DNA of 64,000 nucleotides from NCBI RefSeq assembly GCF_000294655.1, contig NZ_CAHP01000042.1, positions 331 to 64,330 of the forward strand. Reading direction: 5' to 3'. Source of the DNA: Magnetospirillum molischianum DSM 120 (GTDB lineage Bacteria > Pseudomonadota > Alphaproteobacteria > Rhodospirillales > Magnetospirillaceae). The notes beneath the pieces are model-generated. The model ran no database searches and was not told where the DNA came from. It worked only from the letters and a program-made list of their open reading frames with translations. This document shows, piece by piece, positions 42,337-61,062 of this stretch; within the stretch, counting starts at the first letter, position 1; each line of letters begins with the position of its first letter. The position numbers and the translations under genes are program-made.

Positions 42337-43311
42337 CTAATCCCCACAGGCTCCGTCCACCGTGGAGGGCGCAACGCCATTTTCCCGCAGGTAAGCGATA
42401 ACGTCCTTTGCGGCGATGGCGAAGCCAGCGCTGCTGGCCTGCTGGACCGAGACATTGATGTAGGTGTTAATGCCCACAACCCGGCCGCATTGATCCACCA
42501 GCGGTCCGCCGCTGTTGCCACCGGAGATTGGCGCAGAATGGGCGATGGTCAGTAAACGGTCTCTGTTCTGTAAAGCCATCACCGTGCCCTGGCTCATGGC
42601 CAATTCCGGCATGGACTTTAGGTCGCCCTTCAGCAGGGAGCGGAAAGCCATGTCGTTATCCAGCAGCAGGCCGGGATAACCGGCGGCCACCACTTTCTCC
42701 AACTCCTCGACCTTGTCGGTCAGGGTCAGAACCTGAGCCACGCCCGGCCCTTCGACCTGTAGCAAAGCATAGTCGCGGGCACCGAAGCCCTGTCCGGCCA
42801 CATGAGTCAATATCTTGGCCGGACGGGGACCGGAAAGCCCCTGGCCGATGACCACCACCTCGGAGCCTTTGCTGGTCTCCACCACATGATTGTTGGTCAC
42901 AACCAGATTGGGGGCGACGAAGAAGCCCGAACCAGTCCCGTGATCGGCGATCACCAACACCACCGCTTTGTGGAGCCGTTCCACCAAGTCCTGACGATCC
43001 AGAGCCTTGCCATTGGAGACCGGTTGAGGCGACGCCTTGTCTGGTGCCTGATAGGCCTTGTCAGCAGAAGGCTGGACCGCTGAGGAGGTGGGATCGGACA
43101 TCAGCAGGGCCTGAGCCTCGACCGGCGTGGCGCAAGGATCTCCCTTGAGCATGGTCTGCAGCTTGCCGACATATTCCTGTAGGGCCTGATTGCGCTGCTT
43201 CTGGGCGGCGACTTCGGGGCCGGCCTCGGCCATTGCAGGCAGGGACAGGCCAAGTAGAAACGCCAAACATACGGCGAGCTTACGATCCATCATGGCCATC
43301 CCCGCTTCCAT
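42337..43311 (-). CDS. Exported trypsin-like serine protease
   Basis: 324 residues with a signal peptide (KLAVCLAFLLGLSLPAMAEA). The catalytic triad is complete: His142 in TNNHVV, Asp180 in ARDYALLQV, Ser267 in SGGNSGGPL, a DegP/HtrA-like S1C arrangement. There is no PDZ domain; a ~70-residue helical and Pro/Ser-rich segment precedes the protease. Several ATGs (43311, 43299, 43290) are possible starts. It is the last of twelve genes in the Srf operon, 5 bp after the previous one, and would act in the periplasm, perhaps on operon partners. Confidence 0.88.
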   Translation of the reverse strand: MEAGMAMMDRKLAVCLAFLLGLSLPAMAEAGPEVAAQKQRNQALQEYVGKLQTMLKGDPCATPVEAQALLMSDPTSSAVQPSADKAYQAPDKASPQPVSNGKALDRQDLVERLHKAVVLVIADHGTGSGFFVAPNLVVTNNHVVETSKGSEVVVIGQGLSGPRPAKILTHVAGQGFGARDYALLQVEGPGVAQVLTLTDKVEELEKVVAAGYPGLLLDNDMAFRSLLKGDLKSMPELAMSQGTVMALQNRDRLLTIAHSAPISGGNSGGPLVDQCGRVVGINTYINVSVQQASSAGFAIAAKDVIAYLRENGVAPSTVDGACGD

Positions 43312-43316
43312 CCTAA

Positions 43317-43838
43317 TCAGCGATGCAAGGCCATATCGACCTGGCTCTCAAGAGCCTCTTTCTCCTTTTGCAAGGTATCAAGGCGGGCCTTCTTCTCGGC
43401 GTCGGGCGTGAAGCTGTCCTGCTTGACCGTATCGACCTTGGCCTGAAGTTCCTCCACCTGCTGTTGCAGGTCGACGACGTCCTTCTTGGCCTTGGCCTTG
43501 GCGCTATTGGCCGAAGCCAGCTTCTTGCGAATGGCCGCCAGATCCTTGTTCATAGTGGCCAGTTTGGTTTCAGAGGCGGTGCGCTGGGCAGCGACGGCGT
43601 CGCGTTCGGAATTGGCGCGGTCCAGGCTGCGCTGCTGCTGAGTGTTCTGATCCTGGGCGTCTTCCAGGGTCTTCTTACGCTCGTCCACCCGCTGGCTATA
43701 GGTGCCATCGGTCAGGTTCTTAACCCCCGAGAAGAAGCCGCCCTTGGCCGGATCGTCGTTGGTGGCGCATCCCACCAAAGCAAAAGACAGGGCCGCGATG
43801 CAGACACCGGCGCGCAAAGCGTTGCTGTTCATCGTCAT
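43317..43838 (-). CDS. Coiled-coil lipoprotein
   Basis: 173 residues. A signal peptide ends in the lipobox LVGC, followed by ATNDDPAKGGFFSGVKNLTDGTY and then a long heptad-rich helix (residues ~45-165) full of Q, K, E and A. No catalytic motif. A start at ATG 43832 instead of 43838 is equally possible. It is probably anchored in the outer or inner membrane and spans part of the periplasm as a structural or scaffold element of the Srf operon. Confidence 0.8.
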   Translation of the reverse strand: MTMNSNALRAGVCIAALSFALVGCATNDDPAKGGFFSGVKNLTDGTYSQRVDERKKTLEDAQDQNTQQQRSLDRANSERDAVAAQRTASETKLATMNKDLAAIRKKLASANSAKAKAKKDVVDLQQQVEELQAKVDTVKQDSFTPDAEKKARLDTLQKEKEALESQVDMALHR

Positions 43839-43842
43839 CCCC

Positions 43843-44574
43843 TTACCCGACGTTCGAAACTTTGCGGCGCGTCACCAGACTGCTCAACTGATCGTCCAGT
43901 TGGGCAATCTGCGTTTGCAAATTCTTGATCTCGCCGTCCATCTTGGCCCGCTCGGCGACCGAGGTTCCGGCCTGATTCTGCTTAGCGTTAGCCACATATT
44001 TGTCGCGGCGTTCCTTCAGAGAGGCGATGGTCTTCTGCAGATAGGCTGTATTTTCATCCACATGGGCCATACGGCTCTTGGCCTCGGCCATGGTGATCTT
44101 CTTGGCAGCCAGATCGGCATCGATCTGCTCGATACGGCTGCGGTCCGTGGCGATGGTGCTGCGCGCCGTCTGAATCAGCGCGGCCAGACGCTCGTTGTCC
44201 TTATGGACTTCGTCGATCTGGGCGTTATAGCGCTGTTCGGTGTTGGCGTACTGCTCCTGCTTGTTGGCAACCACGGCTCCGGTTCCGGCGCCGACTGCAG
44301 CACCAGCGGCACAGCCAACGGCGGCTCCCTCGCCCTTGCTGTTCTTACCTGCCACCAAAAGGCCAAGCAGCGTGCCGGCGATGCAGCCAACCACCGCGCC
44401 CTCGGCCACGGTCTGGTTGAAGGTGTTGGCCTGTTGACGCAGGCGCTGCTCATCGGGAGACAGCTGACCATTGGGATCGGCCCCTGGCTTATTGCCATCG
44501 GTGGCGCAAGCCGCCAGCAGGAAGCAGGCCGCCACAATGGCGGAAACGGGACGAAGAATGGACGCCTTGATCAT
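43843..44574 (-). CDS. Glycine-zipper coiled-coil lipoprotein
   Basis: 243 residues with lipobox LAAC. Residues ~60-105 form a glycine-zipper segment (GAVVGCIAGTLLGLLVAG and GAAVGCAAGAAVGAGTGAVV) able to insert in a membrane; residues ~110-230 are coiled coil. A GGGGGAT ribosome site precedes the ATG. Together with the next lipoprotein it may form an envelope ring or tether. It lies 12 bp after the FGE-like gene. No enzymatic motif is seen. Confidence 0.8.
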   Translation of the reverse strand: MIKASILRPVSAIVAACFLLAACATDGNKPGADPNGQLSPDEQRLRQQANTFNQTVAEGAVVGCIAGTLLGLLVAGKNSKGEGAAVGCAAGAAVGAGTGAVVANKQEQYANTEQRYNAQIDEVHKDNERLAALIQTARSTIATDRSRIEQIDADLAAKKITMAEAKSRMAHVDENTAYLQKTIASLKERRDKYVANAKQNQAGTSVAERAKMDGEIKNLQTQIAQLDDQLSSLVTRRKVSNVG

Positions 44575-44586: not shown

Positions 44587-46146
44587 CTACATCGTGTTCC
44601 AATTTTTAAGCCACAGATTGCGGGCAACCTTGTGATCCTTTCGATAAGCCGTCAAGTGGCCCATGTGTTTTTCTACGAAAGGCTTCAGTTCAGCCAAGCC
44701 CAACCCTTGCAATTCCACCTGGAGAAGGTCGTACTGCTTGCGTACCACCTCTTCGCCATAATCATCGGCCGTGCGAAGAAGAGTATCGGCATAATAGCGC
44801 AGGATATCGTCGAGAACCGTCTGTTCTTTATCCAATTCGTCCTTGAAATTTTTGGTGCGAGGGTCGTCGGCCTGACCGGCATCGACGCGGGTTTTGTAGA
44901 TCTTGGCCAGCGTTTCGACGGCCTTACTGTCATCGGCAAGTTTCCGCCCCAGGAAGGCCCCCAGACGCAGACTGGTACGCACCGCGCGGTCCCGTTGTTC
45001 ATCCCGTGAGGCAATATTGGCGCGCAAGGTAAGGCTTACCGACTGCAGACGGGCCTGGGTGGCGGGGTCGGCCACCGACTTCGCGATCTTGGAGAGCTCC
45101 TCCACCGGATCGGCGGCAGGCGTCGCGGCGGCAGCCGAGACGGCGCCCAGTTTATCCCAGGCGCCCTGGACCTCTTTCAGCTTGTCGGCAGAGGTCAGCA
45201 CCGGCCCGGCCACCACCAGACGAAAGCCGGTTGTCTTCGAACGGCGCGGTCCCTCGCCGTCATAGAGCGGCAGTTCCTGGCGATAGGAGCTGCGGATATC
45301 CTGCTCGGCGGTCAGATAATTGCCGCCCCGCACCACAAAGCCGCCGGGCTGGCCGTGATCGCGGGACAATTTGTTCAGGCGATAGGGCTCCAGCACGATC
45401 TGGTCCACATTACCCAGCATGTCGAACAGCCCGAGCGAATTGGGCTCCAGCAAGCCGACCAACTGCAGCTTGCCGTTGGCCGACTGGCTGCCGGCGTACC
45501 AGACCTGTTTGGACAGGCCTTCGGTCATGGGCGGCAGACGATCCTGGAACTGGGAGGGCGAGACCTTCATGCCGCCACGGGCGGCGAATTCCCACTCCAC
45601 CTCGGTGGGCAGACGCAGATAGCCCACCTCGCCGCCGTCCTTGGGCAGCTTGGCCAAGGCATTCTTGCGTAGCCATTGACTGTAACGGTCGGCGAAGGAG
45701 ACGGCGTCGAACCAGCCTATCTCCACCTTGGGCATGCGCTTGACCAGGGACGGCGTCGGGCAGTCCCCCTCCATCATTGCCGCCCATTGCAGGTCAGTAA
45801 CGTCGTATTTAGCCATCAGGGTGTAGCGCAGAGTCTTGCCCGCCGGAAAGGCTCCGGCCACATAGGCGTTGTGCGCCCCCTCGCTGTAACCTCTGCCCTC
45901 GTCGGTCCCGCCGATGGAAATGGGATAATCGTCCAGGGGCCCGTTGGAAGGCACCTCGACCTTGCGGAAGACCATGCTGCCGCCGCAGGGCATGGGTAGC
46001 ACCACGTCGTCGGCCAGAGGCTTGGGGTTGACGTATTTGTCTTCCCAGGCCGGAGCGTCGGCGGCCTGAACAGCCGTGGAGGTCAGCCCCAGCAGGGCCA
46101 GACTAAAGATCGCGCAGGCTTTCTGCCGGATCGATGAGCGATGCAC
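44587..46146 (-). CDS. Exported formylglycine-generating-enzyme-fold protein
   Basis: 519 residues from a GTG at 46146 (AGGAG site), overlapping the permease gene by 44 bp. A signal peptide (FSLALLGLTSTAVQA) precedes an FGE-sulfatase domain (residues ~70-310): YDVTDLQWAAMM, VSFADRYSQWL, YLRLPTEVEWEFAARGG, LFDMLGNVDQIVLEP, FVVRGGNY and TTGFRLV. The cysteine normally found near the RGGSW...CR region is absent (SSYRQE here), so it is probably a binding module rather than an oxidase. The C-terminal ~200 residues are helical. It likely recognises a periplasmic ligand for the Srf machinery. Confidence 0.85.
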   Translation of the reverse strand: MHRSSIRQKACAIFSLALLGLTSTAVQAADAPAWEDKYVNPKPLADDVVLPMPCGGSMVFRKVEVPSNGPLDDYPISIGGTDEGRGYSEGAHNAYVAGAFPAGKTLRYTLMAKYDVTDLQWAAMMEGDCPTPSLVKRMPKVEIGWFDAVSFADRYSQWLRKNALAKLPKDGGEVGYLRLPTEVEWEFAARGGMKVSPSQFQDRLPPMTEGLSKQVWYAGSQSANGKLQLVGLLEPNSLGLFDMLGNVDQIVLEPYRLNKLSRDHGQPGGFVVRGGNYLTAEQDIRSSYRQELPLYDGEGPRRSKTTGFRLVVAGPVLTSADKLKEVQGAWDKLGAVSAAAATPAADPVEELSKIAKSVADPATQARLQSVSLTLRANIASRDEQRDRAVRTSLRLGAFLGRKLADDSKAVETLAKIYKTRVDAGQADDPRTKNFKDELDKEQTVLDDILRYYADTLLRTADDYGEEVVRKQYDLLQVELQGLGLAELKPFVEKHMGHLTAYRKDHKVARNLWLKNWNTM

Positions 46147-47341
46147 GGTAGGCTCCTATGGTGGAAGCGGCCAGAACCAGGACCGCCGTCGCCACAACGG
46201 CGATGACGGCATAGAGCTGCGGCAGGCGGCAGACGAATTCATTGTCGGCCAGATTGCTGGATAAAGCGTGGTTGAACAGGAGCGAAACGCCCCAATAGGC
46301 CATCAAGGACAAGGCACAGCCGATCAGGGCCACCAGCAGGGCCTGGGTGGCGGGAAAGGCCATGACCGCTCCCCGCGAAAAGCCGATCAGACGGATCAGC
46401 GCCAGATCCTTGCGCTTGCGATCCACATTGGCCCACAGGCTGGCGGAAAGGGACAGGCCGTAGCCGATCACCGAGATGGCGGCGATGACCCCGAAGATGA
46501 AGCCCAGTACCCGATCAATGCTTTTGACCGTCTCGATCTCGGCGGCATGGGTGCGCACCTCCATCCCTTGCGCGCGCAGACGGTCGGCCAGAGGCCCCAC
46601 ATCGTCCAAGCCCTTGGCGAACAGCCGGGCGCTGGCGTAACTGCGGGGGCCTGTTGGCGGCGGCGGATCGTTCTCGGACGCCCCCAGCAATGGTGCGGCG
46701 AAACCGTCACGGAAATCCTCGGTGGCCACCAGAAGCGGGTTGAGTACGAAGACGCCATCCCGGCCAAAGGCGCTTTCCGGCACCACCCCGGCCACGGTCA
46801 GCACGAAGCGAGCGACCTGACGCTCGCCCTTGACGGTGCGGGCCACCACGGCGGTGACATGGCCACCAGCCACCACTCCCAGGCTTTGCGCGGCAGACTG
46901 GCTGAGCAGCACCGATCCGGGGCCGAACAAAGGCGGCAGCTTCGGCCCCAGCAGGGGATCGCCGTTGGCGGTGGGGATCATCTCGACGGCGGTCAGAGCC
47001 ATGCCGCCGCCGGCCATCAGATCAAGGGTGGCCGAGAGGGAGCGGGTACGCGGCACCAAGAACCCCACCTCGGGCCGAGCCTGCAACGCCTCGAACCATG
47101 CCGGCTCCAGCCGCCCCGAGCCCACCAGAAGAACCTCCAGGTTATGGGGATCGCGCAGGAGGCGTTCGCTCATGGTGGTGATGACGCCCATCTTCAGGCC
47201 GAACAGCACCAGCAGCGGCGTCAGAACCGCCGCCAGGGCCAGCACCAGACAGGCGGTGATGCGCCATTCATGGAGAAGGTCTCGCCAAGCCAGCCCCATG
47301 GCGGTGAAAAGGGTCGAGCGGATGCGGGGAGCGACAGTCAT
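46103..47341 (-). CDS. ABC transporter permease, FtsX/MacB-like
   Basis: 412 residues from the ATG at 47341. One membrane segment near residue 35 (ITACLVLALAAVLTPLLVLFGL) is followed by a large periplasmic domain (~65-265) and three C-terminal membrane segments (VLGFIFGVIAAISVIGYGLSL, AFPATQALLVALIGCALSLMAYW, AVIAVVATAVLVLAAST) ending YRASLIDPAESLRDL, as in MacB/LolC-type permeases. These transmit ATP hydrolysis into mechanical motion in the periplasm. The cognate ATPase is encoded 4 bp upstream. Confidence 0.9.
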   Translation of the reverse strand: MTVAPRIRSTLFTAMGLAWRDLLHEWRITACLVLALAAVLTPLLVLFGLKMGVITTMSERLLRDPHNLEVLLVGSGRLEPAWFEALQARPEVGFLVPRTRSLSATLDLMAGGGMALTAVEMIPTANGDPLLGPKLPPLFGPGSVLLSQSAAQSLGVVAGGHVTAVVARTVKGERQVARFVLTVAGVVPESAFGRDGVFVLNPLLVATEDFRDGFAAPLLGASENDPPPPTGPRSYASARLFAKGLDDVGPLADRLRAQGMEVRTHAAEIETVKSIDRVLGFIFGVIAAISVIGYGLSLSASLWANVDRKRKDLALIRLIGFSRGAVMAFPATQALLVALIGCALSLMAYWGVSLLFNHALSSNLADNEFVCRLPQLYAVIAVVATAVLVLAASTIGAYRASLIDPAESLRDL

Positions 47342-47345
47342 GGCT

Positions 47346-48038
47346 TCAGCTCCGAAAGCGGGTGACGCCACCCGCCAGCTCGGCCTCGATACGGCGCAGA
47401 CCGTAGCGTTCCATCAAAGCCCAATCATGGCTGACCACCATGGCGCTGACGCCCATCTTGGTCACCAGCTGAAGCAACAGGGTCATGACAGTATCGGCGT
47501 TGGCCGGGTCGAGGGACGAAGTCGGCTCGTCGGCCAGCAACAGGGTCGGCCGATGCGCCAAGGCGCGGGCGATGGCCACCCGCTGGCGTTCACCGATGGA
47601 CAGAGCCCGCGGCAATTTGTTCAGCAAGGGCTCCAGCTTCAGCGCCGTGACCAAAGCCTCGGTCAGACCGTCCTCGGGTAGCCCCAACAATTTGCGCGAC
47701 AAAGCGATATTGCCCCGCACCGATAGAAAGGGCAGCAGGCCGCCGGTCTGCAAGACATAACCGATGCGAGACGCCCGCATGGCTGCCAGGATGTCGGACT
47801 TTCCTCTCCGCCATAGGCTCGCCACATCTTGACCGTCGAAGCGAAACCCCCCTTCCCCGGCTTGAGGACGCAACACCAGCCCCAGCAAGTCCAACAAGGT
47901 GCTCTTGCCACAGCCGCTGGGTCCGGTGATCGCCACCGCCTCGCCGCCATTAAGGCTAAGGGCGGGAATCTCCAGGCGAAAGGCTCCAGGCCCCGAACCG
48001 CGCAGGCAGGTCAGGTCTCGGAGCGTCAGCAGACTCAC
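47346..48038 (-). CDS. ABC transporter ATP-binding protein
   Basis: 230 residues from the GTG at 48038 in a GTGA overlap with the vWA gene. Walker A is GPSGCGKST (~39-47), the signature is LSIGERQRVAIARAL, Walker B with the D-loop is LLLADEPTSSLD, and the switch His is in VVSHD. The LolD/MacB-type length and the adjacent FtsX-like permease define the pair. Exported substrates or periplasmic partners are not evident from this sequence alone. Confidence 0.9.
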   Translation of the reverse strand: MSLLTLRDLTCLRGSGPGAFRLEIPALSLNGGEAVAITGPSGCGKSTLLDLLGLVLRPQAGEGGFRFDGQDVASLWRRGKSDILAAMRASRIGYVLQTGGLLPFLSVRGNIALSRKLLGLPEDGLTEALVTALKLEPLLNKLPRALSIGERQRVAIARALAHRPTLLLADEPTSSLDPANADTVMTLLLQLVTKMGVSAMVVSHDWALMERYGLRRIEAELAGGVTRFRS

Positions 48039-50035
48039 GGCAGAGCATCCAGGGGCACCGGATAGACCGCTTCGCCCGGATCGGCGCCGCCGTCCAAAGC
48101 TACCCAACGATCCACGTCGTCATGGTAAATCTGATAGAGCCGCAGCTTGCGCTGCACCTCGTCCAGGAAGGCCTGCTGCTGGCTGATGCTCCAGCTGGAC
48201 CAGAGCTGCTGGTCGATATCCAGGATCTTGCTGCGATAGGGCAGGCCGTCGAGATATTCGCCCATCAGCCCCAGATCGGCCAGTTTGGTGGCATTGGGAT
48301 TGTTGATGGCGTTGGGATCGCGCCCCAGCACCGCCGCCGCCGAGCGCATCTTGGCGAAGAAGTCGTTGGGCGACAGCTGGGCCGCCTGCCCAACCTTGAG
48401 GATGCTTTGCAGCACCTGCTGCATGTCGGACAGCTGGTTCTTGGTCAGCAGCACCCGCACCTCGGTGGTGGGCACCTCGGGCTTGGCCAGATCGCGGTCG
48501 GAAATCCAGGCGTTGAACAGCGGCGGGGTGGTGGTGCCTTCGGTGCGGCCCAGATAGGCTAGCTGCATGGCATAGCCCAGCATGGCGGCATCGCGGCGCA
48601 GGCGGTCCGAAGAATCCTTGGCCTTGGCCTTGGCCTTATCGCCTTCGGCGGTGGCGCGGGTGTAGGAGGCGTCGGCGGTAGTGGCACTACCGGCCACGGA
48701 TTCGCCGCGATAGGCGGCATTGACCTGATCGACGATGGCGTCGGCCAGAGTATCGACCATCTGGCCCATCCCCTCCACCGAGCCGCCCTCGACGGGATAA
48801 TAGAGGGGTTGGGACAGCAAGGGATGAGTGGTCAAGGCCTTGTACTGCGCCTCGGCGCCGGCATGGTCGGGCTTGCTCTCGTCGGTGCGCAGATGCAGGG
48901 CGTAAAGGGCCACGCCGCGATGCTGGGCCTCCAGCCTGATCTGCTCGGCATCCAGATGGGTGCCGGACAAGGGATCATTGCCCTTCAGGGAGCCTGCGTC
49001 GGTAATCAGCACCACATAGCGCCCGCCGAAGCGGGTCCAGTCGATGCCGGTCAAGGCAGTCATGACGCCGGAATAAGAATCCTCGTCCACCCGGGCCGAG
49101 GAAACAGAGGCAGCCTTGACGTCGGCGACGCGGGCCAGGAAATCATTGCCGTCTTTCACCTGGGTGGGATCGGCATAGACCTTCGAGACATAATCCAGCT
49201 TGGGCACCGCCTGGATGTTGGAGCGAAAGGCCACCAGCCCGAACTTCACCCGATCATTCAACCCGGCCTTGCCGACCCGGTCATAGATACGCTTCACCGC
49301 CGCGCGGACCCGGTCGATATAGGGGTTCATGGATATGGTGGAATCCACCACGAACACCACCGAGGCGCTGAAGTTGCGCAGCACGCTGGCGTGATCCTTG
49401 GCGTCGGCGGCAGGCTTTTTGGACTCGTCTTGGGCCGAGACCGAAGCCACCTGCAGCACCCGCACCCGGTTGCCGCTGCCCGTCAGGGTTTCCTCGGCCT
49501 GAATGATCGGCAGCAGGTAGAAATGCTTCGAGATATCCACATAGGTCTCGGGCTCCACCGCGACCACGCGAGGATCGCCCTTGCCCGACAGAGCCGCCTT
49601 GCGCAGGGGCGACAGGACGGTATCGGGCTTGTCGGCCTCGACGATGGGCTGAAGATCCTTGCGCTCCTTGAACAGCAAGGAGCGTTCGCGACCCGCCGGA
49701 TTAGTAAAGGCCAGAGCCATCTGCTGATTCCACGGCAGGGTCACATCGTCTTGCAGCCAGCCATCTGCATGCCCCTTGGCGGTCAGCCCCACCTCCAGCC
49801 AGGTCTTGTCACCCACCGCCTTACGCGAATAGACATAAAGCCGGGTCATGGCTGGCTGCTGCGCCCCCGGCCCATCGCCTGGCTCCCGCTTCAGCGAGGC
49901 GCCGGGACGGGTCAAGACCCGCTGATAGAGGGTTTTCTTGCCATCCATCAGCAAAGGTGTGTGATCTGCGGCGAAAGCCGGAATGGCCAGTCCCAACAGC
50001 ATAACGCAAAGGGTGATGGAGGCCAGAATGCGCAT
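48035..50035 (-). CDS. Exported vWA-domain protein
   Basis: 666 residues with a signal peptide (ITLCVMLLGLAIPAFA). Residues ~25-105 look like an SH3-type or wall-binding region (GDKTWLEVG). The vWA domain spans ~222-440 with a MIDAS-like VVDSTISMNPY (Asp231), FGLVAFRS and YVVLITDAG. It resembles the periplasmic part of PpkA-type proteins but has no kinase domain. Residues ~450-666 are helical. ATG at 50035 has an AAGGAAG site. It probably binds a partner through a metal site in the periplasm. Coupled by overlap to the ABC ATPase gene. Confidence 0.85.
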   Translation of the reverse strand: MRILASITLCVMLLGLAIPAFAADHTPLLMDGKKTLYQRVLTRPGASLKREPGDGPGAQQPAMTRLYVYSRKAVGDKTWLEVGLTAKGHADGWLQDDVTLPWNQQMALAFTNPAGRERSLLFKERKDLQPIVEADKPDTVLSPLRKAALSGKGDPRVVAVEPETYVDISKHFYLLPIIQAEETLTGSGNRVRVLQVASVSAQDESKKPAADAKDHASVLRNFSASVVFVVDSTISMNPYIDRVRAAVKRIYDRVGKAGLNDRVKFGLVAFRSNIQAVPKLDYVSKVYADPTQVKDGNDFLARVADVKAASVSSARVDEDSYSGVMTALTGIDWTRFGGRYVVLITDAGSLKGNDPLSGTHLDAEQIRLEAQHRGVALYALHLRTDESKPDHAGAEAQYKALTTHPLLSQPLYYPVEGGSVEGMGQMVDTLADAIVDQVNAAYRGESVAGSATTADASYTRATAEGDKAKAKAKDSSDRLRRDAAMLGYAMQLAYLGRTEGTTTPPLFNAWISDRDLAKPEVPTTEVRVLLTKNQLSDMQQVLQSILKVGQAAQLSPNDFFAKMRSAAAVLGRDPNAINNPNATKLADLGLMGEYLDGLPYRSKILDIDQQLWSSWSISQQQAFLDEVQRKLRLYQIYHDDVDRWVALDGGADPGEAVYPVPLDALP

Positions 50036-50047: not shown

Positions 50048-51109
50048 TTATTTCACGGCATCCAGAGCGGCCTTGGCCTTGGCGTCGCCGGCGGCGGCGG
50101 CCTTGCTGAGCCAGTCGCGGCCCTTGTCCCGCTGGAAGCCCGAAGGATTGAGCTGCACCAGAATCTGCCCCAAACGACGCTCGGCCTCCACATTGCCGGC
50201 CTGAGCGGCGGGCTCGTACCAATAGGCCGCTGTCTCGGCGTCGGCCTGGGGCATGGGGCTGGTCTTGGCGGTCCAGGTCTCGGGGTCATACATATGGCCC
50301 AAAGCCATATTGGCCTCCTGGCTGCCGCTCCGGGCGGCATGCTGATAAACCAGCATGGCCAGATCGAGCTTATCCTTGTCCGCCAGCTTAGCGGCGGCAG
50401 CCAAGGCGTCGGCGGAGCTGGGATTGGACTGGATGAATTTCGCCACATCCTCGCGGCTGTTGATCTCGCTCGGAGCCTGCGTCACCGGAGCAGGATTGAC
50501 CGGAGCCTCTGCCATGGCCGTGGCCGGCGGCGGGGTCTCTCTCTTGTCGCCCTTGAACAGGAAAAAGCCCGCAGCCGCACCAGCCACCACCAGAGCGGCG
50601 ACAATGCCGCCGATGATCAGCCCCAGGGGCGGCTTGCCCTTGGGCACAATAGGAGGCTCAACCGGCTGCATCGACAGACGATCCTCGACCGGAGCGGTCA
50701 GCACCATTGGTTCCGGCACAGGCTCCTCGTGGACGACCCGATCCCCTTCGCCGGCCGGCCGGCTGCCCGAGGCGGAAGAGGGCAGCAGGCCACGCACAGT
50801 GACGCCGCCGAAGTCATTCAGGCCCTTCACCTTCAGGCGCAAGATGCAGTTGGGCGGCAAAGAGGCGATGGGGTCCACCATTTCCGGTCCCACCGGCACC
50901 ACCACGCCGGCACCATCGGCCCTGGCGTTCAGGGCATGCCAAGCCTCGGCGTTCTGCCAGCCGCCATCAGCTCCCAGGAATTGGCCCTTCTGGTTCGACT
51001 GAATCGAAACCTCCAACGGACCGGCGGCAACCGGCGCCCCTGCGATGCGCAGCAGCCCATAGCCCGGGCCGCGGTCCCGGTCGAGGCCGAGTTCGATCTT
51101 CAAAGCCAT
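50048..51109 (-). CDS. Membrane protein with Sel1/TPR-like repeats
   Basis: 353 residues from the ATG at 51109, overlapping the srfC stop. The N-terminal ~100 residues are a beta-rich domain (LKIELGLDRDRGPGYGLLRI). One membrane segment (LGLIIGGIVAALVVAGAAAGFFLF, ~160-183) is followed by a Pro/Ala linker and a C-terminal repeat domain (AMLVYQHAARSGSQEANMALGHMY, AAYWYEPAAQAGNVEAERRLGQIL), typical of Sel1 repeats. That places adaptor repeats in the periplasm and the beta domain next to SrfB and SrfC in the cytoplasm. Confidence 0.8.
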   Translation of the reverse strand: MALKIELGLDRDRGPGYGLLRIAGAPVAAGPLEVSIQSNQKGQFLGADGGWQNAEAWHALNARADGAGVVVPVGPEMVDPIASLPPNCILRLKVKGLNDFGGVTVRGLLPSSASGSRPAGEGDRVVHEEPVPEPMVLTAPVEDRLSMQPVEPPIVPKGKPPLGLIIGGIVAALVVAGAAAGFFLFKGDKRETPPPATAMAEAPVNPAPVTQAPSEINSREDVAKFIQSNPSSADALAAAAKLADKDKLDLAMLVYQHAARSGSQEANMALGHMYDPETWTAKTSPMPQADAETAAYWYEPAAQAGNVEAERRLGQILVQLNPSGFQRDKGRDWLSKAAAAGDAKAKAALDAVK

Positions 51110-51110
51110 G

Positions 51111-53849: not shown

Positions 53850-53860
53850 GTCACGTCTCC

Positions 53861-56800
53861 TTAGCGAACGATGCTGCCGGTATCGAGCCAATAGCTGTTC
53901 TCGCCGATGCCTGCGCTGTTCAGCGTATTCAGCCTGATCCTCAGAGCCGAGGGCGAGACCATGCCGCCCTCATTGGTGGCGACCCTGGCCACCGCGAAGG
54001 TCTCACGGTAGATGGGCTTGCCGTCGGGACCGGGCGGGCCGAGACGGCGGGTTCGCTTCAAGGTCACAGACAAGACGTTGCCCTGCTCGCTCTTTTCGGA
54101 ATCGCGCCCGTAAAGCTCGTCCCTAGCCCGGCTGTTGTCAGCCGAGAAATCCAGCATATAGAGCGGACTCGCTCCCCAGCGGGCCGAGGACAGCTGGCGG
54201 AAGCCCAGAATCATACGACCGCGCATCTCAAAAGGAGTTTCTGGCAGCTCATAGAGATCATCGTCCAAATCGACATCACTGTAATAGACGTCGCTGTCCT
54301 TGATGGTCATGTTCTGATCCAAAAGGCCGATCTTGCGCACTGTCGACTGGATGCGAAAGGCATTAGAGCGGAAGAAGAAGTTCGGCACCCGTCCCTGTCC
54401 CAGCACGCAAAGCATGGCCCCCACCGCCGCCGTGGTCTTGGGATCGTCGATGCGCTCCTGGCGGTGGAAGGGATACCAGCTGCCGGTGCGGAAATTATGC
54501 AGGGGCACGATGCGATCCGGCGGTAGCGGCAGCAGAGCGCGGAACAGGGCCTGGATGCCCGGCAGCTGCGAGGGCCTGCCGCTGATCAGCAGCACGTCGC
54601 AGTCATAGAGATAGACCACCTCGCACAAGGCGCGGATGGTCTTGCTGATTTCGAACTCGTCCTCCAGGAACAGCTTGTGCAGCCGCCCCAGATCGATGGG
54701 CAGTCGTACCGACAGCAGATCGAAGGTCGGAGCCTGCGCCCCCAAGACTCCGCGCACCCCCTGGGCAAAGAAGGCCAACACCTCTTCCGAGGGACGATCG
54801 CCGGAGGGGATCAGATCGCCGATATTGGCCGCCAGAGGCGTCGCCCCCGAGGCCGGGTCGTAGTTCTCATATTCCTTCAGGATGCGCAGAGCCAGCGGAT
54901 AGAACACCTGCAAGGACAGCTGCTGACGCAGCACCATATGCTGAACGATGCCGGCCTCGGCGCCCATCAGCTTAGAGAGCAACGGCCCCGGATCGGACAG
55001 CCCGGCTTCCTTCAAAGCAGTGGTGATGGCCGGCACCACCATCTTCTGGATGACCTGCAAGACGATATCGTCACCGGCCACCTTGAAGCCGTCATGGAAG
55101 CGCTGGCGCGGATTGATATAGACGTTGGCCCCGCGCCCGTCGTCGAGCACATAGTCGGTCACTACCAGATCGGTGGTGCCGCCGCCAATATCGATCGAGG
55201 CCACCGTCAGGGTCTTCTGATCGTCGCCAGCGCGAGGACGGCGCATGACCTGGAAGAATTCGTTGGGACGGCCGCCGAAATGGTTGACCGCCTGGGAATA
55301 GAGATAGACAGCCTGGGCGGCGGTGGCTTCGTCCCACTGGGTCTTATAGGTAGGCAGCGGCGGCCATGCTAGTTCGCGGCCATCGCCGTCGATAGAATCT
55401 TCCGCCGGATGCCAGCCCAAGGACTTCCACACCAGACCGATGGCCTGACGCATGCGCTCCTCGAAAACCTGCCGCTCGGCCTTGGGCATGGAGGGCGGAA
55501 CCGTCAGGATCACCGACCGGAGCTGGCGGGCTGTATTGGCGTGGCTCTGCTTCATGCGCTGGCCGGGGCTGTTGCATTGGCCCAGGGCTTGAACCAGCAC
55601 TTCCGCCAGCATAAAGGTCATCAGCGAACTGCGACTGTAATGAGGCATAAAGACCTGATAGCGGTCTTCGGGGGACAGAGTGAACAGCGCCTCGCCCACA
55701 TCATTGATCAGAGCGCCGAAAGGTTGGGCGGTGGCATGGGGCTCGCTTTCTGACTTGTTGAAAGCGTCGTTGAAGCGCCAGCCCGGCTCATAGCGGTCTT
55801 CGTCCCATAGATAGCGCTTAGGGCTGGACAGGCCGGTGGCTCCCTCGGTTCCCCGGCGGCGGGCGGCCAGACGGGTGGCCTCGGGGCCGACCCGGGCGAT
55901 GGTCGGCCACAGGAAAGCGTCATTGCGGCCCGAATGGCAGGACTGATCCACCTTACCGAACACCGCCTCGGCGAATTCGATACGGCTCTCAAAAGGATCG
56001 GCATAGACCTGATGGGGCCGCGTCAGATCGCGTAGCTCCATAGCGTAGCGATGGCTCATGCCGTCGGTTTCCTGAGGATGGTCCTCGATCAGAATGCCGC
56101 AGGTACGGGAATTGCCGACATCCAGGATCAAATCCACCTGGATGGGCTTTTGCAGATCGCCCTGACGGTTGCTGAGTATCTTGATCTTGGGCAGACGCAG
56201 CTTCGAGCCGATCAGGGCCAGCAGGTTCAGGTAATGGGCCTTGTGGGCGCGGAACTTGCGCTCCTGCTTCTCAATGTCTTCGGGGCTAAGGCGCAGCTTG
56301 GCCTGGGCACGGTCGCGGAAGACTTCGCCCAACCAGTTGGAAACCCAGGACTGTTCCAGGAACCAGCCCATGTCCTGGCCCTGCCAGGCCAAGGCGAAGC
56401 GGGCGCCGCCGGTGATGTCCGACAGGGTGGGGGCCAGATAGGCAGCCCCCTCGATATCTCCCTCGGCGATGTTCGTGTCGAATGACAGCACCAGACGGTG
56501 GGTATTGCCCTGCTCGTCGCTTTGGCCGGGAGCCAGGGATATCAGCCGGGCCCGCGCCCAATTGGTCGGCCCGGCCACGAAGACTGAGCTGTGCTGGCGC
56601 AGGAACGGCACCGGCAGCCACAGATCCTCCAGCAGCTTGACCGAGTCCTCCATGGTGGCCTCGAGATGGACTTGCGCGCTTTCACGGCTGCCGGGCAGGA
56701 AGGTCTTGCCGCTGGCCTCGTCATAGGCCAGTCGGGCCACGGTTTCGCCCAGTCCCAAATTGAACTGGCCGGGCATTTCCTTGCGCAGATCCAAGGTCAG

Positions 56801-56878
56801 GCCGAAATCCATGAACTGGACGCCGGTCCGCATGATCAGCGTGGCGTCTTCGCCGAATTCGATAAGTTGCGCAAGCAT
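53861..56878 (-). CDS. srfB: SrfB-like Hsp70/actin-fold ATPase
   Basis: 1005 residues, the usual size for SrfB. Actin/Hsp70-type nucleotide motifs appear: phosphate-1 like LILDVGNSRTCGILIED (~250), phosphate-2 like ASIDIGGGTTDLVVTDYVL (~560) and adenosine-binding LLISGRPSQLPGIQALFR (~770). The N-terminal ~240 residues are a separate domain and the last ~150 a beta-rich one. Known SrfB proteins are called virulence factors from their regulation in Salmonella, but the biochemical function is unsettled. It is cytoplasmic (no signal or membrane segment) and the second-last soluble engine before srfC in this operon. Confidence 0.88.
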   Translation of the reverse strand: MLAQLIEFGEDATLIMRTGVQFMDFGLTLDLRKEMPGQFNLGLGETVARLAYDEASGKTFLPGSRESAQVHLEATMEDSVKLLEDLWLPVPFLRQHSSVFVAGPTNWARARLISLAPGQSDEQGNTHRLVLSFDTNIAEGDIEGAAYLAPTLSDITGGARFALAWQGQDMGWFLEQSWVSNWLGEVFRDRAQAKLRLSPEDIEKQERKFRAHKAHYLNLLALIGSKLRLPKIKILSNRQGDLQKPIQVDLILDVGNSRTCGILIEDHPQETDGMSHRYAMELRDLTRPHQVYADPFESRIEFAEAVFGKVDQSCHSGRNDAFLWPTIARVGPEATRLAARRRGTEGATGLSSPKRYLWDEDRYEPGWRFNDAFNKSESEPHATAQPFGALINDVGEALFTLSPEDRYQVFMPHYSRSSLMTFMLAEVLVQALGQCNSPGQRMKQSHANTARQLRSVILTVPPSMPKAERQVFEERMRQAIGLVWKSLGWHPAEDSIDGDGRELAWPPLPTYKTQWDEATAAQAVYLYSQAVNHFGGRPNEFFQVMRRPRAGDDQKTLTVASIDIGGGTTDLVVTDYVLDDGRGANVYINPRQRFHDGFKVAGDDIVLQVIQKMVVPAITTALKEAGLSDPGPLLSKLMGAEAGIVQHMVLRQQLSLQVFYPLALRILKEYENYDPASGATPLAANIGDLIPSGDRPSEEVLAFFAQGVRGVLGAQAPTFDLLSVRLPIDLGRLHKLFLEDEFEISKTIRALCEVVYLYDCDVLLISGRPSQLPGIQALFRALLPLPPDRIVPLHNFRTGSWYPFHRQERIDDPKTTAAVGAMLCVLGQGRVPNFFFRSNAFRIQSTVRKIGLLDQNMTIKDSDVYYSDVDLDDDLYELPETPFEMRGRMILGFRQLSSARWGASPLYMLDFSADNSRARDELYGRDSEKSEQGNVLSVTLKRTRRLGPPGPDGKPIYRETFAVARVATNEGGMVSPSALRIRLNTLNSAGIGENSYWLDTGSIVR

Positions 56879-56925: not shown

Positions 56926-58293
56926 CTACTTTACAATCTCGACCCGATAGCCGTCTTTGGTATTGGCGTTCTGCCCCTTGCAGTCGGCTTTGCCATTCTT
57001 GCCAGGAGTGCATTCAACCCGAGAGCGGTCGAACGTCCGGCCGTCAGGGCAGACCACGTCGCCGCTCTGATCGATCATCAGCTTGCTGCCGACCATGGCT
57101 GCGGTGGCTCCGGCGGTACAGGAGGTTCCATCGCTGCGGTGGATGGTCGCCGTCCCCTTGCCGTCCTTAAAATCATATTCCATGTCCAGAGGTCGCCCGG
57201 TATCGCTGTCCATAAGGCCAGTCCGCGAATGCCAGCGGCCGTTCAGGAAGGAAGTATTGCCGTTCTTGGCAGCTTCGTCCGGAATGGTCAGCGGCGGCTT
57301 GTCCGGGCGCGGCGGAACCACCGGCGGCAGGGTCTTGGCGTCAGCAGACTTGTCCTTTGGGTCCTTCTGGTCAGGGTGCTGCGGAACCGGAGGTTCGCTC
57401 TTGTCCTGCGGCTGGTCTTTCTCGTCCTTGGCGTCAGGCTGCGGCGGCTTGACGGAACCCTCCGTTCCGATAGGAGGCACGACCTGATCATCGGAACCAA
57501 CAACGCCACCAGGAACCACAATCCCCGGCTCCGTCACCCCCGGCACCACCACACCGGGAATAGAGCCATCCGGACCCTGCGCCTGAGGCAGAATCAGACT
57601 GGCTCCCGGTACCGAAGCCACCCAGGCTGGCAGCGGCACCGCGCAGCTGTTCAGCCCGAACAGCAAAAACAGCAGCAACAACAGAAGGATCAGGGGCAAG
57701 AGGAGCCAGCGCAGGCAGCCCCAACTCCTTGATGCCGCCACCAACGGGACCGCCACTACCGCAGCCGTGGCCGCCGTCGCAGCAGGGGTGGCTGTCGCCA
57801 AAGACAAATCGCGGATGACATGTCCGCCGGGCGCGGCGTGCAGCAGTTCGAAGCCCCAGAAGGTCAGCACCGGGCGCCCGCCCACCAGATGGATGTGACT
57901 TTCGTCGGGAATATGCATGGCCAGGGGCAGCATGCGGGCGAAGATTTCCGGAGCCGTCTCGCCCCTGGCATTGCCCGCCAGCTGTGACCGCAGCTGGGCG
58001 CTATGGCCTTCGAAGCGGCTGCGCATGCGCTGCATGGCGTCAAAGGCCGCCGTTCTCTCCTCTGCTGTGGCTGCCGACCATGGCACCACCGGACCGTCGA
58101 AAGGAGCGTACCAATCAACCCGGTTCCCAGCCTCGTTGATCTGGGGAACGGCCAGCATTTCCGCCGCTTCTGGACCTAATTGACGGCGAACCGTGGCTGA
58201 CAGCTGCGCCGACGCGCCGAACACCGGATTGCCTAAAACCCCAAGCGCGTTGTATTCGCGCAAGCTGCCACTGCGTAGAAGCGGAGTGCCCAT
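56926..58293 (-). CDS. SrfA-like membrane protein
   Basis: 455 residues. Residues ~1-148 hold the module shared by three proteins here (VDWYAPFDGPVVPW at 59-72, HIHLVGGRPVLTFWG at 133-147). A membrane segment with a Cys follows (WLLLPLILLLLLLFLLFGLNSC, ~196-217), then a long Pro/Asp/Lys linker (~225-345) and a C-terminal beta domain (residues ~345-455) with three Cys-containing strands (GTSCTAG, VVCPDGRTF, RVECTPG). Topology predicts N-terminus in the cytoplasm, C-terminus in the periplasm. It is the likely SrfA partner of SrfB/SrfC; the symbol is withheld because identity with SrfA is by context. Confidence 0.78.
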   Translation of the reverse strand: MGTPLLRSGSLREYNALGVLGNPVFGASAQLSATVRRQLGPEAAEMLAVPQINEAGNRVDWYAPFDGPVVPWSAATAEERTAAFDAMQRMRSRFEGHSAQLRSQLAGNARGETAPEIFARMLPLAMHIPDESHIHLVGGRPVLTFWGFELLHAAPGGHVIRDLSLATATPAATAATAAVVAVPLVAASRSWGCLRWLLLPLILLLLLLFLLFGLNSCAVPLPAWVASVPGASLILPQAQGPDGSIPGVVVPGVTEPGIVVPGGVVGSDDQVVPPIGTEGSVKPPQPDAKDEKDQPQDKSEPPVPQHPDQKDPKDKSADAKTLPPVVPPRPDKPPLTIPDEAAKNGNTSFLNGRWHSRTGLMDSDTGRPLDMEYDFKDGKGTATIHRSDGTSCTAGATAAMVGSKLMIDQSGDVVCPDGRTFDRSRVECTPGKNGKADCKGQNANTKDGYRVEIVK

Positions 58294-58345: not shown

Positions 58346-59965
58346 TCACGGCTTGCACCCCGGACCGCCCATGGGCTGCTCCGAGGACTTACGCACCAAT
58401 TCAGGCAATTCGTCCACCTTGCGCATTTTGTAGACCTTGCCGCCGCTTGGGCCAACCACGCAGGCGCTGCTACCCTGGCCAGCGCCATTCACATCGATGA
58501 AGTTGATCTTCAAATTAGGCTTCTTTTGAGCCATAGCCCGAGCCGCCGCGCAAGGATCGCCCCCACAGCTTTCGTCGCCGTCAGACACCACGATCAGCAC
58601 GCCGGGAACGGAATTTCCATCCATCATGTTCGCGGCGCGTTCGATTCCTCGAGCCAGGGGCGTTCCCTCATGCGGCCTCACGTTACTTAGAAGTTCGCCC
58701 AGGCGACCACGCTCATTGGGAGCAAAGAACTTGTAATTATCGGCCCCCTGACATTCGCCAACCACCACCAGCCCCACATCCACGTCGGAAGGCAACTGGG
58801 GCACGGTTTCCAGGATCGACTGTCGGGCAATGTCCAGACGGCTCTTGCCATTGGGCTGGATCATGCTCTTCAGCCGCATCAAGGCGGCACGGTCTCCGGC
58901 GCTGGCGCGACGATAGGCGTCCTCGATCTCCGAATTCGGAATACCGGCGGCGAAGGCCATGCTGCCGGACGCATCCAGCAGCAGCACCACCTCGGGCGCC
59001 TCCCACTTCTGGCGGGCAGGCGGGCAGTTCTGAGATTGCTTCTGGGGGGGGGGAGTTTGGGCCTTAGCCTGGGGCTGGAGCTTTGGCTCCGGTTTTGGCT
59101 CGGGCTTAGGCTCCAGTTTCTTCGGCTCGGCCTTCGGTGCCTCCTCTGCCTTGGGCTCGACCTTGAGAGGGGCGGCCTGAAGATTGGGCTTGGTGATCTC
59201 GGTCTTCGGCAAGGCCGGCGGCGCTTCGGCCCGTGGCTTTTCCTCCGGCACCGGGCAGGACTCCAGCCGCTGGCGCAGTTCCTTGCGCAAAGCCTCGGCT
59301 TGGTCGCGCAAGCGGCCTTCCTCGTCCTTCAGTCCGACGAGATCGGCCCCAGCCTCGGTCTGCCCCGCCAGCGGCAGGTCAAACAATCCGCAGCCGCGCA
59401 GGCCAAAGAGCAGTCCCAACAAAAGCAGCAGCAGCAAGGCCAGTATCAGCCAACGCAACCATACGCGCCGCCACCAGGGCAGCCCCGCAACCACCGCAGC
59501 GGCAGCCAAGGGAGCAACGACCGGCGTCGGCGCCGCTTGCCCCCACATCACCACCACGGGCTGCCCACCGATGACGAAGACATGCTCGGGTTTGGGCTGG
59601 ACGGCGGCGCTTCGCAGGGCTTGAACAAGATTGTGCTGAGACGGATCGGCTTCCATTTCCATCCGCTCCGCCAGATTACGCAAGACCGCCAGCCGCTCGG
59701 CCAGCAAGGCCTCGGCCTGAGCGCGAGCGGGAGCTGCCAATTGGGTCAGGGGAACCGGCTGGTCGGACAGATCCGAATACCATTCGATGGTTGCGCCATC
59801 GGCTGTCGGCATGGGCATGGCCAGCACCGAGGCGATGATCGGCGGATGATAGCGCCTGATCAGCGCATCAACCTGCGGATGCCATGAGCCGGCGGGCTGC
59901 CCCCCGATTACAATCGGATGATATAGGGCGGCCTCGACGCGAGTAACACGAAGACGATGCCTCAT
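58346..59965 (-). CDS. SrfA-like membrane protein with C-terminal vWA domain
   Basis: 539 residues from the ATG at 59965 (an ATG at 60013 is possible). The shared N-terminal module has IEWYSDLSDQPVPL (60-73) and HVFVIGGQPVVVMWG (128-142). A membrane segment follows (~168-190), then a coiled coil, a Lys/Glu/Pro repeat linker (EPKPEPKPEPK, ~290-325), and a vWA domain (~340-520) with a canonical MIDAS (LLDASGSM) and a conserved Thr/Asp loop (EGTPLARGI, VVSDGDESCGGD). The periplasmic vWA probably binds a partner. It is the first gene of the minus-strand operon. Confidence 0.82.
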   Translation of the reverse strand: MRHRLRVTRVEAALYHPIVIGGQPAGSWHPQVDALIRRYHPPIIASVLAMPMPTADGATIEWYSDLSDQPVPLTQLAAPARAQAEALLAERLAVLRNLAERMEMEADPSQHNLVQALRSAAVQPKPEHVFVIGGQPVVVMWGQAAPTPVVAPLAAAAVVAGLPWWRRVWLRWLILALLLLLLLGLLFGLRGCGLFDLPLAGQTEAGADLVGLKDEEGRLRDQAEALRKELRQRLESCPVPEEKPRAEAPPALPKTEITKPNLQAAPLKVEPKAEEAPKAEPKKLEPKPEPKPEPKLQPQAKAQTPPPQKQSQNCPPARQKWEAPEVVLLLDASGSMAFAAGIPNSEIEDAYRRASAGDRAALMRLKSMIQPNGKSRLDIARQSILETVPQLPSDVDVGLVVVGECQGADNYKFFAPNERGRLGELLSNVRPHEGTPLARGIERAANMMDGNSVPGVLIVVSDGDESCGGDPCAAARAMAQKKPNLKINFIDVNGAGQGSSACVVGPSGGKVYKMRKVDELPELVRKSSEQPMGGPGCKP

Positions 59966-60090
59966 TCTGGCGCCAACAAGGAAAAAGTTCGTTGCGGGCC
60001 AATTTGATAACATACTAAAAAGCGTCAGGCTACACGGCAGCTAAATTTTTCTATAGAAGGTTGCCGCATACCCCTTTCAAGGGAGCGAGC
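59966..60090. promoter_or_regulatory. Divergent promoter region of the Srf block
   Basis: 125 bp of AT-richer DNA (TTGATAACATACT near 60003, CTATAGAAGG near 60050) separate the operon from the divergent gene and must hold both promoters. No -35/-10 pair of consensus quality could be fixed by eye. Confidence 0.45.
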
Positions 60091-61062
60091 ATGACTATCC
60101 GAGCAGTACAGCTAATCGAAAAGAATACCGTTCGGGAATATAGTTTCGTAGGCAATTGCGGCGAAGCCGTCACCACCAACGCCGAAAAGCTGCTCCAGCT
60201 TTTACGCCAGCGACGGGACGAGACCACGGCCGCCCTCTTTGCTCTACCCCGCTTCGACCCCATGCGCCAGAACGTCATGTGGTTCGGGCAAAGCACAGGC
60301 TCCTTGGAACCCTTCGGCGAATTGAGCGACGAAGAACAGGCCCGTTTTCTCGACGATCTCACCGTCATGCGTGAAAAGCTGCAGTCCTTAAGCGCCGAGA
60401 TTCAGGCCGACGCCCGCAACCACAAGGGCGAGGCCAAAGTCTACGCCCAACTCTTGCCGCTCCTGCTGAACTTCCCCAAGCCGGTGGAATATCATCTGTT
60501 CCGCCTAAACGGACGGCCGGTCGTCATCAATTGGGGCATGAACAAGGGATCGGCCATCGAAGCCGCCGACACCGTCGGCCCCTTCATCGAAAATTGGCAC
60601 AAGCGCCTGGAGGACCGCCGCCGTCAGGCCTTGGAACAGGCCGAGGCCAAAACCCGCGAGGAAAGTTTCCTGGGCCGCCTGACCCGCGCCGGCGCCAAAA
60701 CTGGCGCGGTGACCGTGTCGCTCTTATGGAACGACCGCAACGATCTGGACCTGAGGGTGCAATGCCCGAATGGTGAGGAAATCTCCTTCTTCAACAAACA
60801 GGCCTGCGGCGGTATCCTGGACGTCGACCGCAACGCCCACCCCTGCGCCCTCACCGACAGTCCGGTTGAGAACATCTGCTGGAGCAAACGCCCCAGCCAA
60901 GCCGGAGAGTACCGAGTTCTAGTCAACCATTTCCGCCGTCATGATGAGCGGGTCGAAGTCAGCCCCTTCACCCTGCGAATCCAGAAGAACGGCAAGGTGA
61001 GCTTCCACTCCGCGGAAGCTGGCCTGGGAGAAACCAAGCTCGTCACCAGTTTTCATATCTGA
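60091..61062 (+). CDS. SrfA-module protein with YfaP/DUF2135-like domain
   Basis: 323 residues; the ATG at 60091 follows GGGAGCGAG. Residues ~60-150 repeat the module of the two SrfA-like proteins (VMWFGQSTGSLEPF, YHLFRLNGRPVVINWG). No signal or membrane segment is present. The C-terminal domain (~215-320) reads VTVSLLWNDRNDLDLRVQCPNGEEI, CGGILDVDRNA and GEYRVLVNHF, the beta-sandwich pattern of DUF2135/YfaP proteins. It is transcribed away from the operon and probably acts as the cytoplasmic member of the trio. Confidence 0.8.
   Translation: MTIRAVQLIEKNTVREYSFVGNCGEAVTTNAEKLLQLLRQRRDETTAALFALPRFDPMRQNVMWFGQSTGSLEPFGELSDEEQARFLDDLTVMREKLQSLSAEIQADARNHKGEAKVYAQLLPLLLNFPKPVEYHLFRLNGRPVVINWGMNKGSAIEAADTVGPFIENWHKRLEDRRRQALEQAEAKTREESFLGRLTRAGAKTGAVTVSLLWNDRNDLDLRVQCPNGEEISFFNKQACGGILDVDRNAHPCALTDSPVENICWSKRPSQAGEYRVLVNHFRRHDERVEVSPFTLRIQKNGKVSFHSAEAGLGETKLVTSFHI

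Follow-up and report, generated by a model that had tools for sequence, protein, structure and literature searches.

A recurrent Srf gene block of Magnetospirillum molischianum, best read as a TagQRST-type danger sensor variant with another output

We analyzed a 64,000-nucleotide stretch of the Magnetospirillum molischianum DSM 120 genome (contig NZ_CAHP01000042.1, positions 331 to 64,330), here called the window, and within it a block of 13 genes around srfA, srfB, and srfC, numbered g1 to g13. Twelve of the genes lie on the minus strand at 42337 to 60013, and g1 is divergent at 60061 to 61062. The block is recurrent and partly described, and our best reading is that it varies the TagQRST danger sensor by giving it another output. 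Sequence comparison showed that g7 shares homology with PpkA over its periplasmic half and that g8, g9, and g10 are homologs of TagT, TagS, and TagR; g11 resembles TagQ, and the genes run in the order vWA-T-S-R-Q. In Pseudomonas aeruginosa, the TagQRST/PpkA set senses outer-membrane damage (PMC11881912). The function that we infer is an envelope-damage response, in which a kinase-less sensor of the TagQRST/PpkA type would signal to SrfB and to a dynamin-like SrfC, protecting or resealing the membrane without a type VI secretion system (T6SS); we consider the case for it evenly balanced. SrfB and SrfC carry the label of virulence factors, with no agreed mechanism.

An earlier note, made from the sequence alone, had described the genes as one uncharacterized envelope machine, with 12 minus-strand genes that overlap or stand at most 52 bp apart and one divergent gene. 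All frames and their spacing were confirmed, and the picture of an envelope-spanning assembly with cytoplasmic NTPases holds. The block is not wholly uncharacterized, however, since g7 to g11 relate to parts of a known damage sensor and the neighborhood was reported in 2013 (PMC3608642).

Relatives of the sensor genes beside T6SS loci

By BLASTP against a T6SS-linked PpkA locus (L161), g7 aligned with residues 402 to 1016 of PpkA at 39% identity (E = 1e-153); the identities of g8 to g10 in Table 1 are to the same locus. Positions 21 to 654 of the 654 in the g7 profile matched residues 397 to 1016 of that PpkA with 694 bits, and the kinase occupies residues 12 to 254. The Srf-type TagQ profile recognized the T6SS TagQ in six of six loci (108 to 121 bits), and g11 itself gave no BLASTP match to the L161 TagQ at 1e-3. 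The window holds a TagT/TagS pair and a TagR homolog clustered with a PpkA periplasmic region, one of the features by which the TagQRST-PpkA pathway is recognized. A comparison of g7 with solved structures gave no match. The ABC/FtsX pair, g8 and g9, had been set beside MacB/Lol-type pairs in the earlier note, and it groups instead with TagT/TagS. An export function of the LolCDE, MacB, or FtsEX kind was rejected, the scores lying below the cutoffs of the respective models (FtsE, 132.5 bits against 264.85; LolD, 128.9 against 307.75; MacB, 105.5 against 966; LolCE, 26.1 against 362.45).

The T6SS-type relatives came from a search of 398 genomes with a TagS profile built from Srf loci. Its 17 matches comprised eight in genomes with SrfB, six of one family (f67) without SrfB, one in genome G073, and two that were weak and partial (G362 and G414). 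All six f67 loci (L161 to L166) carry PpkA-TagT-TagS-TagR-TagQ together with PP2C and IcmF, and for one of the six the 20 kb read also included VipB. In L161 the kinase, PP2C, IcmF, VipB, and VasJ were confirmed by Pfam; residues 1 to 300 of its PpkA are identical to a protein of Pseudomonas sp. GM50, and close relatives carry the source name PpkA.

Public names of g7 relatives include "PpkA-related protein" and "serine/threonine-protein kinase PpkA," although a length of about 670 amino acids leaves no room for a kinase. Queries from L161 for the PpkA kinase, PP2C, IcmF, VipB, ImpA, and TssB were run at E = 1e-3 against 101 Srf loci, namely, 20 from searches of genome samples, 80 from a scan of a public collection (the best 80 of 94 confirmed), and the window. 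The sole match was that of the kinase query to PglW of the BREX set in the window, more than 28 kb from the block. The kinase query was positive in all six T6SS loci, and PP2C and IcmF matches were confined to L161 to L166. Relative to the TagQRST-PpkA set of the Pseudomonas H1-type T6SS (the threonine phosphorylation pathway), the Srf block has a homologous vWA half, TagT, TagS, and TagR, and a TagQ-like lipoprotein, in the same order, but, PglW aside, no Srf locus matched the PpkA kinase, PP2C (PppA), or IcmF. The block also differs in its output genes, which are srfA, srfB, srfC, and g6, and in being found in genomes without VipB.

The cassette was seen in a third context as well: in G073 (L167, 6120 to 15284), vWA-TagT-TagS-TagR-TagQ is followed by the second lipoprotein family of the block (LP12) and then by an S41 peptidase, with no match to SrfB, SrfC, or a PpkA-type kinase in the 20 kb read. 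In a TagS tree whose root is unsure, the six T6SS-type rows formed one clade (100/100) joined to a Desulfovibrio Srf-type row (99/97), a grouping that suggests that T6SS-type and Srf-type sensors may have been exchanged.

The window's genome, with a listed completeness of 100, gave no match to VasE or VipB. We tested 47 Srf genomes for VipB, mostly picked for the full arrangement described below; it was present in 30 and absent from 17, the window's genome included. Hosts with the full block and no VipB include the environmental Pseudomonas jessenii DSM 17150 (L066) and Terasakiella pusilla (L069). In 12 of those 17, the full block stood in one locus. Three of the 12, G447, G419, and G351 (the last outside the 101 loci), consist of one or two contigs, and some others are drafts or metagenome bins. 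The full block in VipB-less genomes indicates that it does not depend on a T6SS everywhere; cross-talk between the two is possible where both exist. In Pseudomonas syringae, a "ppkA" locus has been taken as a putative third T6SS cluster, and a SrfB gene was named among the T6SS genes lowered in the absence of (p)ppGpp (PMC7146990).

These results bear on a proposal from 2013, when srfBC were described with hap, tagQ, ppkA, ligA, and often tagRST in host-associated Deltaproteobacteria (Desulfovibrio), without a settled function; PpkA was suggested as a trigger of SrfC export, and T6SS genes were found in only one of those genomes (PMC3608642). The neighborhood there is of the same kind as ours. 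Extended to the block, the proposal would make it a T6SS appendage, with Tag/vWA genes that regulate the T6SS and SrfC as an exported effector, and both the homology of the sensor parts and the 30 VipB-positive genomes fit. We nevertheless judge it improbable. The 2013 paper took PpkA for a kinase and SrfC for a possible effector, whereas here the vWA protein lacks a kinase and SrfC is, by prediction, a large GTPase of the dynamin-like kind. Apart from PglW, the kinase query found nothing in any Srf locus, those of Desulfovibrio included, and the Desulfovibrio vWA proteins seen (L129, L131, and L141) measure only 655 to 666 amino acids. The 17 genomes without VipB likewise argue against a T6SS appendage. 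Beyond what that paper described, we find the block in Alpha-, Beta-, and Gammaproteobacteria.

Recurrence of the block and the short form of Enterobacterales

Genes in the 101 loci were labelled with profiles built from those loci. Arrangements were counted on the downstream side of SrfB, in the 90 loci with at least 9 kb there (11 of the 101 fell below 9 kb), and one genome with a weak partial SrfB match (G248) was excluded throughout. SrfC, Sel1, vWA, TagS, and TagR were all found downstream of SrfB in 38 loci, the window included, and three more had vWA and TagS; we call these the long form. In 39 loci, mostly from Enterobacterales, SrfC stood without Sel1, vWA, TagS, and TagR (the short form), and 10 were arranged differently. 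The order SrfC-Sel1-vWA-TagT-TagS-TagR was kept in all of the 38, which come from Alpha-, Beta-, and Gammaproteobacteria and from Desulfovibrio. The remaining parts vary: among the 38, in the DNA covered for each, a SrfA-N protein was found in 33, TagQ in 33, LP12 in 11, a g2-type vWA protein in 10, a g1 tail in 6, and a trypsin-like domain in 5.

The idea that the block is one unit is thus borne out by its core in 38 of 90 loci and its fixed order. The expectation that all 13 genes recur together was not, as the window alone among the 38 has every component family. The earlier note had also held that the idea would fall if homologous loci elsewhere separated the ABC, vWA, and FGE genes from srfBC. 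Such separation does occur, in the 39 short loci and in the srf-less Tag cassettes beside T6SS genes, so that this condition is fulfilled in part; the Enterobacterales short form, however, is derived and nested.

The derivation comes from a quick SrfB tree of 87 rows, made without bootstrap, rooted at the midpoint, and with several long branches. Two loci were left out, L119 with broken frames and L130 with no SrfC found. One short-form locus with an overextended frame (L088) counts as "other" among the 90 loci and as short for the tree and motif counts. A clade of 34 short-form rows, made up of 22 identified Enterobacterales loci (Salmonella enterica subsp. arizonae included) and 12 further genomes, fell on one side of a branch with a Shimodaira-Hasegawa-like approximate likelihood ratio test (SH-aLRT) value of 100, and its nearest neighbors are long-form rows. 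By this sequence comparison, the short srfABC of Enterobacterales is a nested, derived clade among long forms. The long form is found in Enterobacterales too (L071, L102, and L125).

The GTPase motifs of SrfC follow the same division. G1 and G3 are both intact in the window, in 41 of 41 long rows, in 7 of 7 "other" rows, and in 5 of 5 short rows outside Enterobacterales. Among the 34 Enterobacterales short rows, G1 was kept in 9 and G3 in 6, at least one was lost in 29, and the G4 aspartate was kept in 33. Loss of G1 or G3 is confined to this clade, and since the tree needs three changes of motif state, the events were few. The likeliest course would be that the sensor was lost first and the GTPase decayed later. 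Short SrfABC of Salmonella and other Enterobacterales has the same SrfA, SrfB, and SrfC families in the same order as the block, but lacks Sel1, vWA, and Tag genes downstream and has mostly lost G1 or G3.

Another account splits the block into two modules with different jobs that share an operon and nothing more, one a SrfABC complex in the cytosol and the other a Tag/vWA set for signalling or export. Each half does occur alone, the short form in 39 of 90 loci and the Tag cassette with T6SS genes in six genomes and in the third context in G073. Against this stand the gene order, invariant across three proteobacterial classes and Desulfovibrio, and the Enterobacterales short form, which is nested inside the long one and alone has lost the SrfC motifs. 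We hold separate jobs to be unlikely.

The srf operon of Xenorhabdus is probably of the long form, to judge from a 2682-bp srfC and T6SS control genes nearby, and its Srf proteins are reported to form an A-B-C complex and to be cytotoxic (PMC6950479). A main role of SrfABC as a three-part cytotoxin or virulence factor against eukaryotic cells would also fit the presence of srfBC in all human-associated Deltaproteobacteria genomes of 2013 and one further strain but not in environmental ones (PMC3608642). In a crude hydrophobicity scan, however, SrfB and SrfC showed neither a strongly hydrophobic segment nor a signal-like start. SrfB loci also occur in Methylococcus, Terasakiella, and Methylocapsa, which are free-living. 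In Salmonella, moreover, srfC mutants, a polar srfB mutation, and an operon deletion affected swarming (PMC4219756). A toxin as the main role seems to us most unlikely of all.

SrfB is sparse. It was found in 22 of 398 sampled genomes of the phylum (21 above the cutoff), in 2 of 60 relatives, and in none of 16 other genomes of the same genus, and its absence from these 16 suggests lateral gain in the window's genome. A DUF772/DDE transposase adjoins the block at 62134 to 63504, which is consistent with such a gain; no tRNA lies beside the block or elsewhere within the window. In three Bacteroidota loci (L134, L135, and L142), SrfB-SrfC have SrfA-N proteins downstream rather than upstream and no TagS or TagR in range; in L135, sorted as short, vWA-profile and ABC genes precede SrfB. 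In Leclercia adecarboxylata (L119), srfA, srfB, and srfC are split over several broken frames.

SrfA-type proteins, SrfB, SrfC, and a proposed damage response

The SrfA, SrfB, and SrfC families are adjacent in the window (scores in Table 1), the arrangement by which SrfABC is recognized. In the predicted structure of SrfC, a GTPase fold is joined to a helical bundle formed from both chain ends. Residues 13 to 915 of this model align to mitofusin, EHD, and BDLP (Foldseek E = 3.6e-6 to BDLP, with low TM-scores), at 8 to 15% identity to dynamin-family structures in the rows listed. SrfC is accordingly predicted to fold like bacterial dynamins and mitofusins. It shares the predicted fold and the G1 and G3 motifs with BDLP, SynDLP, DynA, and IniA, but differs from them in its distant sequence, in a membrane activity that is putative, and in being encoded with a trans-envelope sensor. 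In the open-licence literature we found no paper tying SrfC to dynamin. The SrfB profile had no match among solved structures; of 17 members, one or two gave weak matches to FtsA, HSP70, and MreB (E of about 0.1). SrfB frames of about 1330 to 1350 amino acids, some 300 above the usual length, were seen in L118, L126, and L138 (Anaerobiospirillum and a gammaproteobacterial bin).

One SrfA N-terminal domain, overlooked in the earlier note, is common to g1, g2, and g3 (73, 73, and 306 bits to NF040486), where it stands on different tails. Across the 101 loci, the tail on SrfA-N proteins is trypsin-like in 4 loci, of the g1 type in 14, and of the g2 vWA type in 10, and 30 loci have at least two such proteins. 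With so many tails, the domain looks like a reusable cytoplasmic adaptor. Its predicted model gave suggestive fold matches to kinase-like proteins and nothing firmer. Pfam assigned no kinase family in 77 members, and a profile search of the PDB gave no kinase. By hhalign against PpkA kinases, the comparison was not significant (P = 0.15), although its one short alignment sets the conserved Trp-Gly motif on the DFG region of the kinase. Rv3910 and EssB/YukC are presumably pseudokinases, with which the title of the YukC entry agrees. We keep a kinase-like SrfA N-domain as a lead, the model being suggestive. For g6, an FHA-like domain was considered and dropped, as no FHA was among the matches listed (25 of 37 families, 23 members). 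The g6 profile gave weak matches (18 to 28 bits) in five of six T6SS loci to the linker before the PpkA vWA part, over a membrane segment and a proline-rich stretch, and we draw no conclusion from them.

In the damage response that we propose, outer-membrane damage would be registered by TagQ and TagR, by analogy with Pseudomonas, and TagST and g7 would carry the signal across the periplasm. The SrfA-type membrane proteins g2 and g3, together with g6, each with an N-domain, one membrane segment, and a tail, would relay it to SrfB and SrfC, their cytoplasmic domains occupying the place of the PpkA kinase. SrfB, as an ATPase, and SrfC might then be recruited to the wounded spot. A dynamin at a membrane wound is plausible by analogy, as DynA and IniA gather at membrane lesions (PMC8844932).

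A fuller version, which we regard as doubtful, goes further. Srf would be a wound response in which the sensor marks damage and SrfA-type adaptors with a kinase-like but inactive cytoplasmic domain recruit SrfC, as a dynamin under the control of SrfB, to reseal the inner membrane. Its decayed stump would be the short srfABC operon found in Salmonella and other Enterobacterales, the T6SS retaliation sensor and Srf would be two outputs of one portable sensor, and PpkA would have arisen when a kinase joined the vWA half. If the damage response is real, work on Salmonella-type srfABC has concerned a reduced form that lacks the sensor and in which the GTPase is for the most part decayed, and the complete system resides in many environmental Proteobacteria. 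The TagQRST/PpkA attack sensor would then be a portable module with a second, T6SS-free, and testable output, a dynamin-like GTPase.

Layout of the block and its defense neighbors

Spacing within the block, in coordinate order, is 5, 4, 12, -44, -26, -73, 12, -14, -31, 47, 52, and 47 bp, the last being that of the divergent pair. The probable start of g1 is the ATG at 60091, not the TTG at 60061, and g5 and g8 probably start downstream of the start of the longest frame (a TTG in g8). In the crude hydrophobicity scan, g2, g3, and g6 each had a single central hydrophobic segment, and g7, g11, g12, and g13 had one at the N-terminus; g11 and g12 also carry a lipobox-like motif. The scan showed no such segment at the start of g10, which resembles a signal peptide by eye only. 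A scan for promoters and terminators was uninformative, with 1 promoter-like site where 4.1 were expected and 16 terminator-like sites where 14.4 were expected.

Table 1. Genes of the Srf block, with positions in the window
Gene	Product	Coordinates	Strand	Evidence
g1	SrfA-N domain, then a weak DUF2135/YfaP-like domain	60061..61062	+	NF040486, 72.8 bits (N-part only); DUF2135, E 0.032, below cutoff; no membrane segment
g2	SrfA-N domain, membrane segment 183-213, vWA (putatively periplasmic)	58346..60013	-	VWA_2, 32.4 bits, above cutoff; NF040486, 73.4 bits, N-part only
g3	SrfA; N-domain, membrane segment 190-223, Cys-containing tail (putatively periplasmic)	56926..58293	-	NF040486, 306.1 bits, cutoff 150
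g4	SrfB, actin/Hsp70-type ATPase motifs	53861..56878	-	PF07520, 1340 bits
g5	SrfC, GTPase, predicted dynamin-like fold	51111..53891	-	PF10139, 1041 bits
g6	N-domain, membrane segment 165-192, Sel1-like part	50048..51124	-	Sel1, 22.8 bits, below cutoff
g7	Exported vWA protein, homolog of PpkA periplasmic half without kinase	48035..50035	-	VWA, 22.5 bits, cutoff 23.8; BLASTP to PpkA
g8	TagT-like ABC ATPase	47346..48107	-	ABC family above cutoff; 54% identity to T6SS-linked TagT
g9	TagS-like FtsX-type permease	46103..47371	-	FtsX above cutoff; 41% identity to T6SS-linked TagS
g10	TagR-like FGE-fold protein, putatively exported	44587..46146	-	PF03781, 113 bits, above cutoff; 31% identity to T6SS-linked TagR
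g11	TagQ-like Gly-zipper lipoprotein	43843..44574	-	NF041250, E 7e-14, 51.8 bits, cutoff 300
g12	Second coiled-coil lipoprotein (LP12)	43317..43838	-	Lipobox-like motif
g13	Exported trypsin-like serine protease	42337..43311	-	Trypsin_2, 80.4 bits, above cutoff

A BREX/Pgl set with high-scoring PADLOC models (PglW, PglX, BrxC-PglY, PglZ, and BrxHI) lies in the window at 9397 to 29420. This promising neighbor, the absence of SrfB from the 16 other genomes of the genus, and the protection of Bacillus against phage by DynA (PMC8844932) would suit an anti-phage system within a defense island. PADLOC was run on 10 of the 13 block proteins (g1 to g7, g9, g10, and g13), and nine matched no model; the protease g13 alone matched, over its protease domain, the RT-Protease_XI models. 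Nor is there an excess of defense genes beside other long loci: in PADLOC scans of 93 of the 142 frames flanking long loci and 93 of the 248 flanking short ones, family counts at 1e-20 were 6 per 93 genes on either side, some of those on the long side from overlapping models. Silencing of srfB, moreover, was among the changes that raised resistance to a jumbo phage, in a gene set in which motility was also affected and swimming still exceeded 50% (PMC11797060). We rejected the defense-island reading on the PADLOC results and hold an anti-phage role to be very unlikely. Between the BREX set and the block, at 38564 to 39976, the window encodes a protein that combines an IrrE-type M78 peptidase domain with a weak match to a helix-turn-helix.

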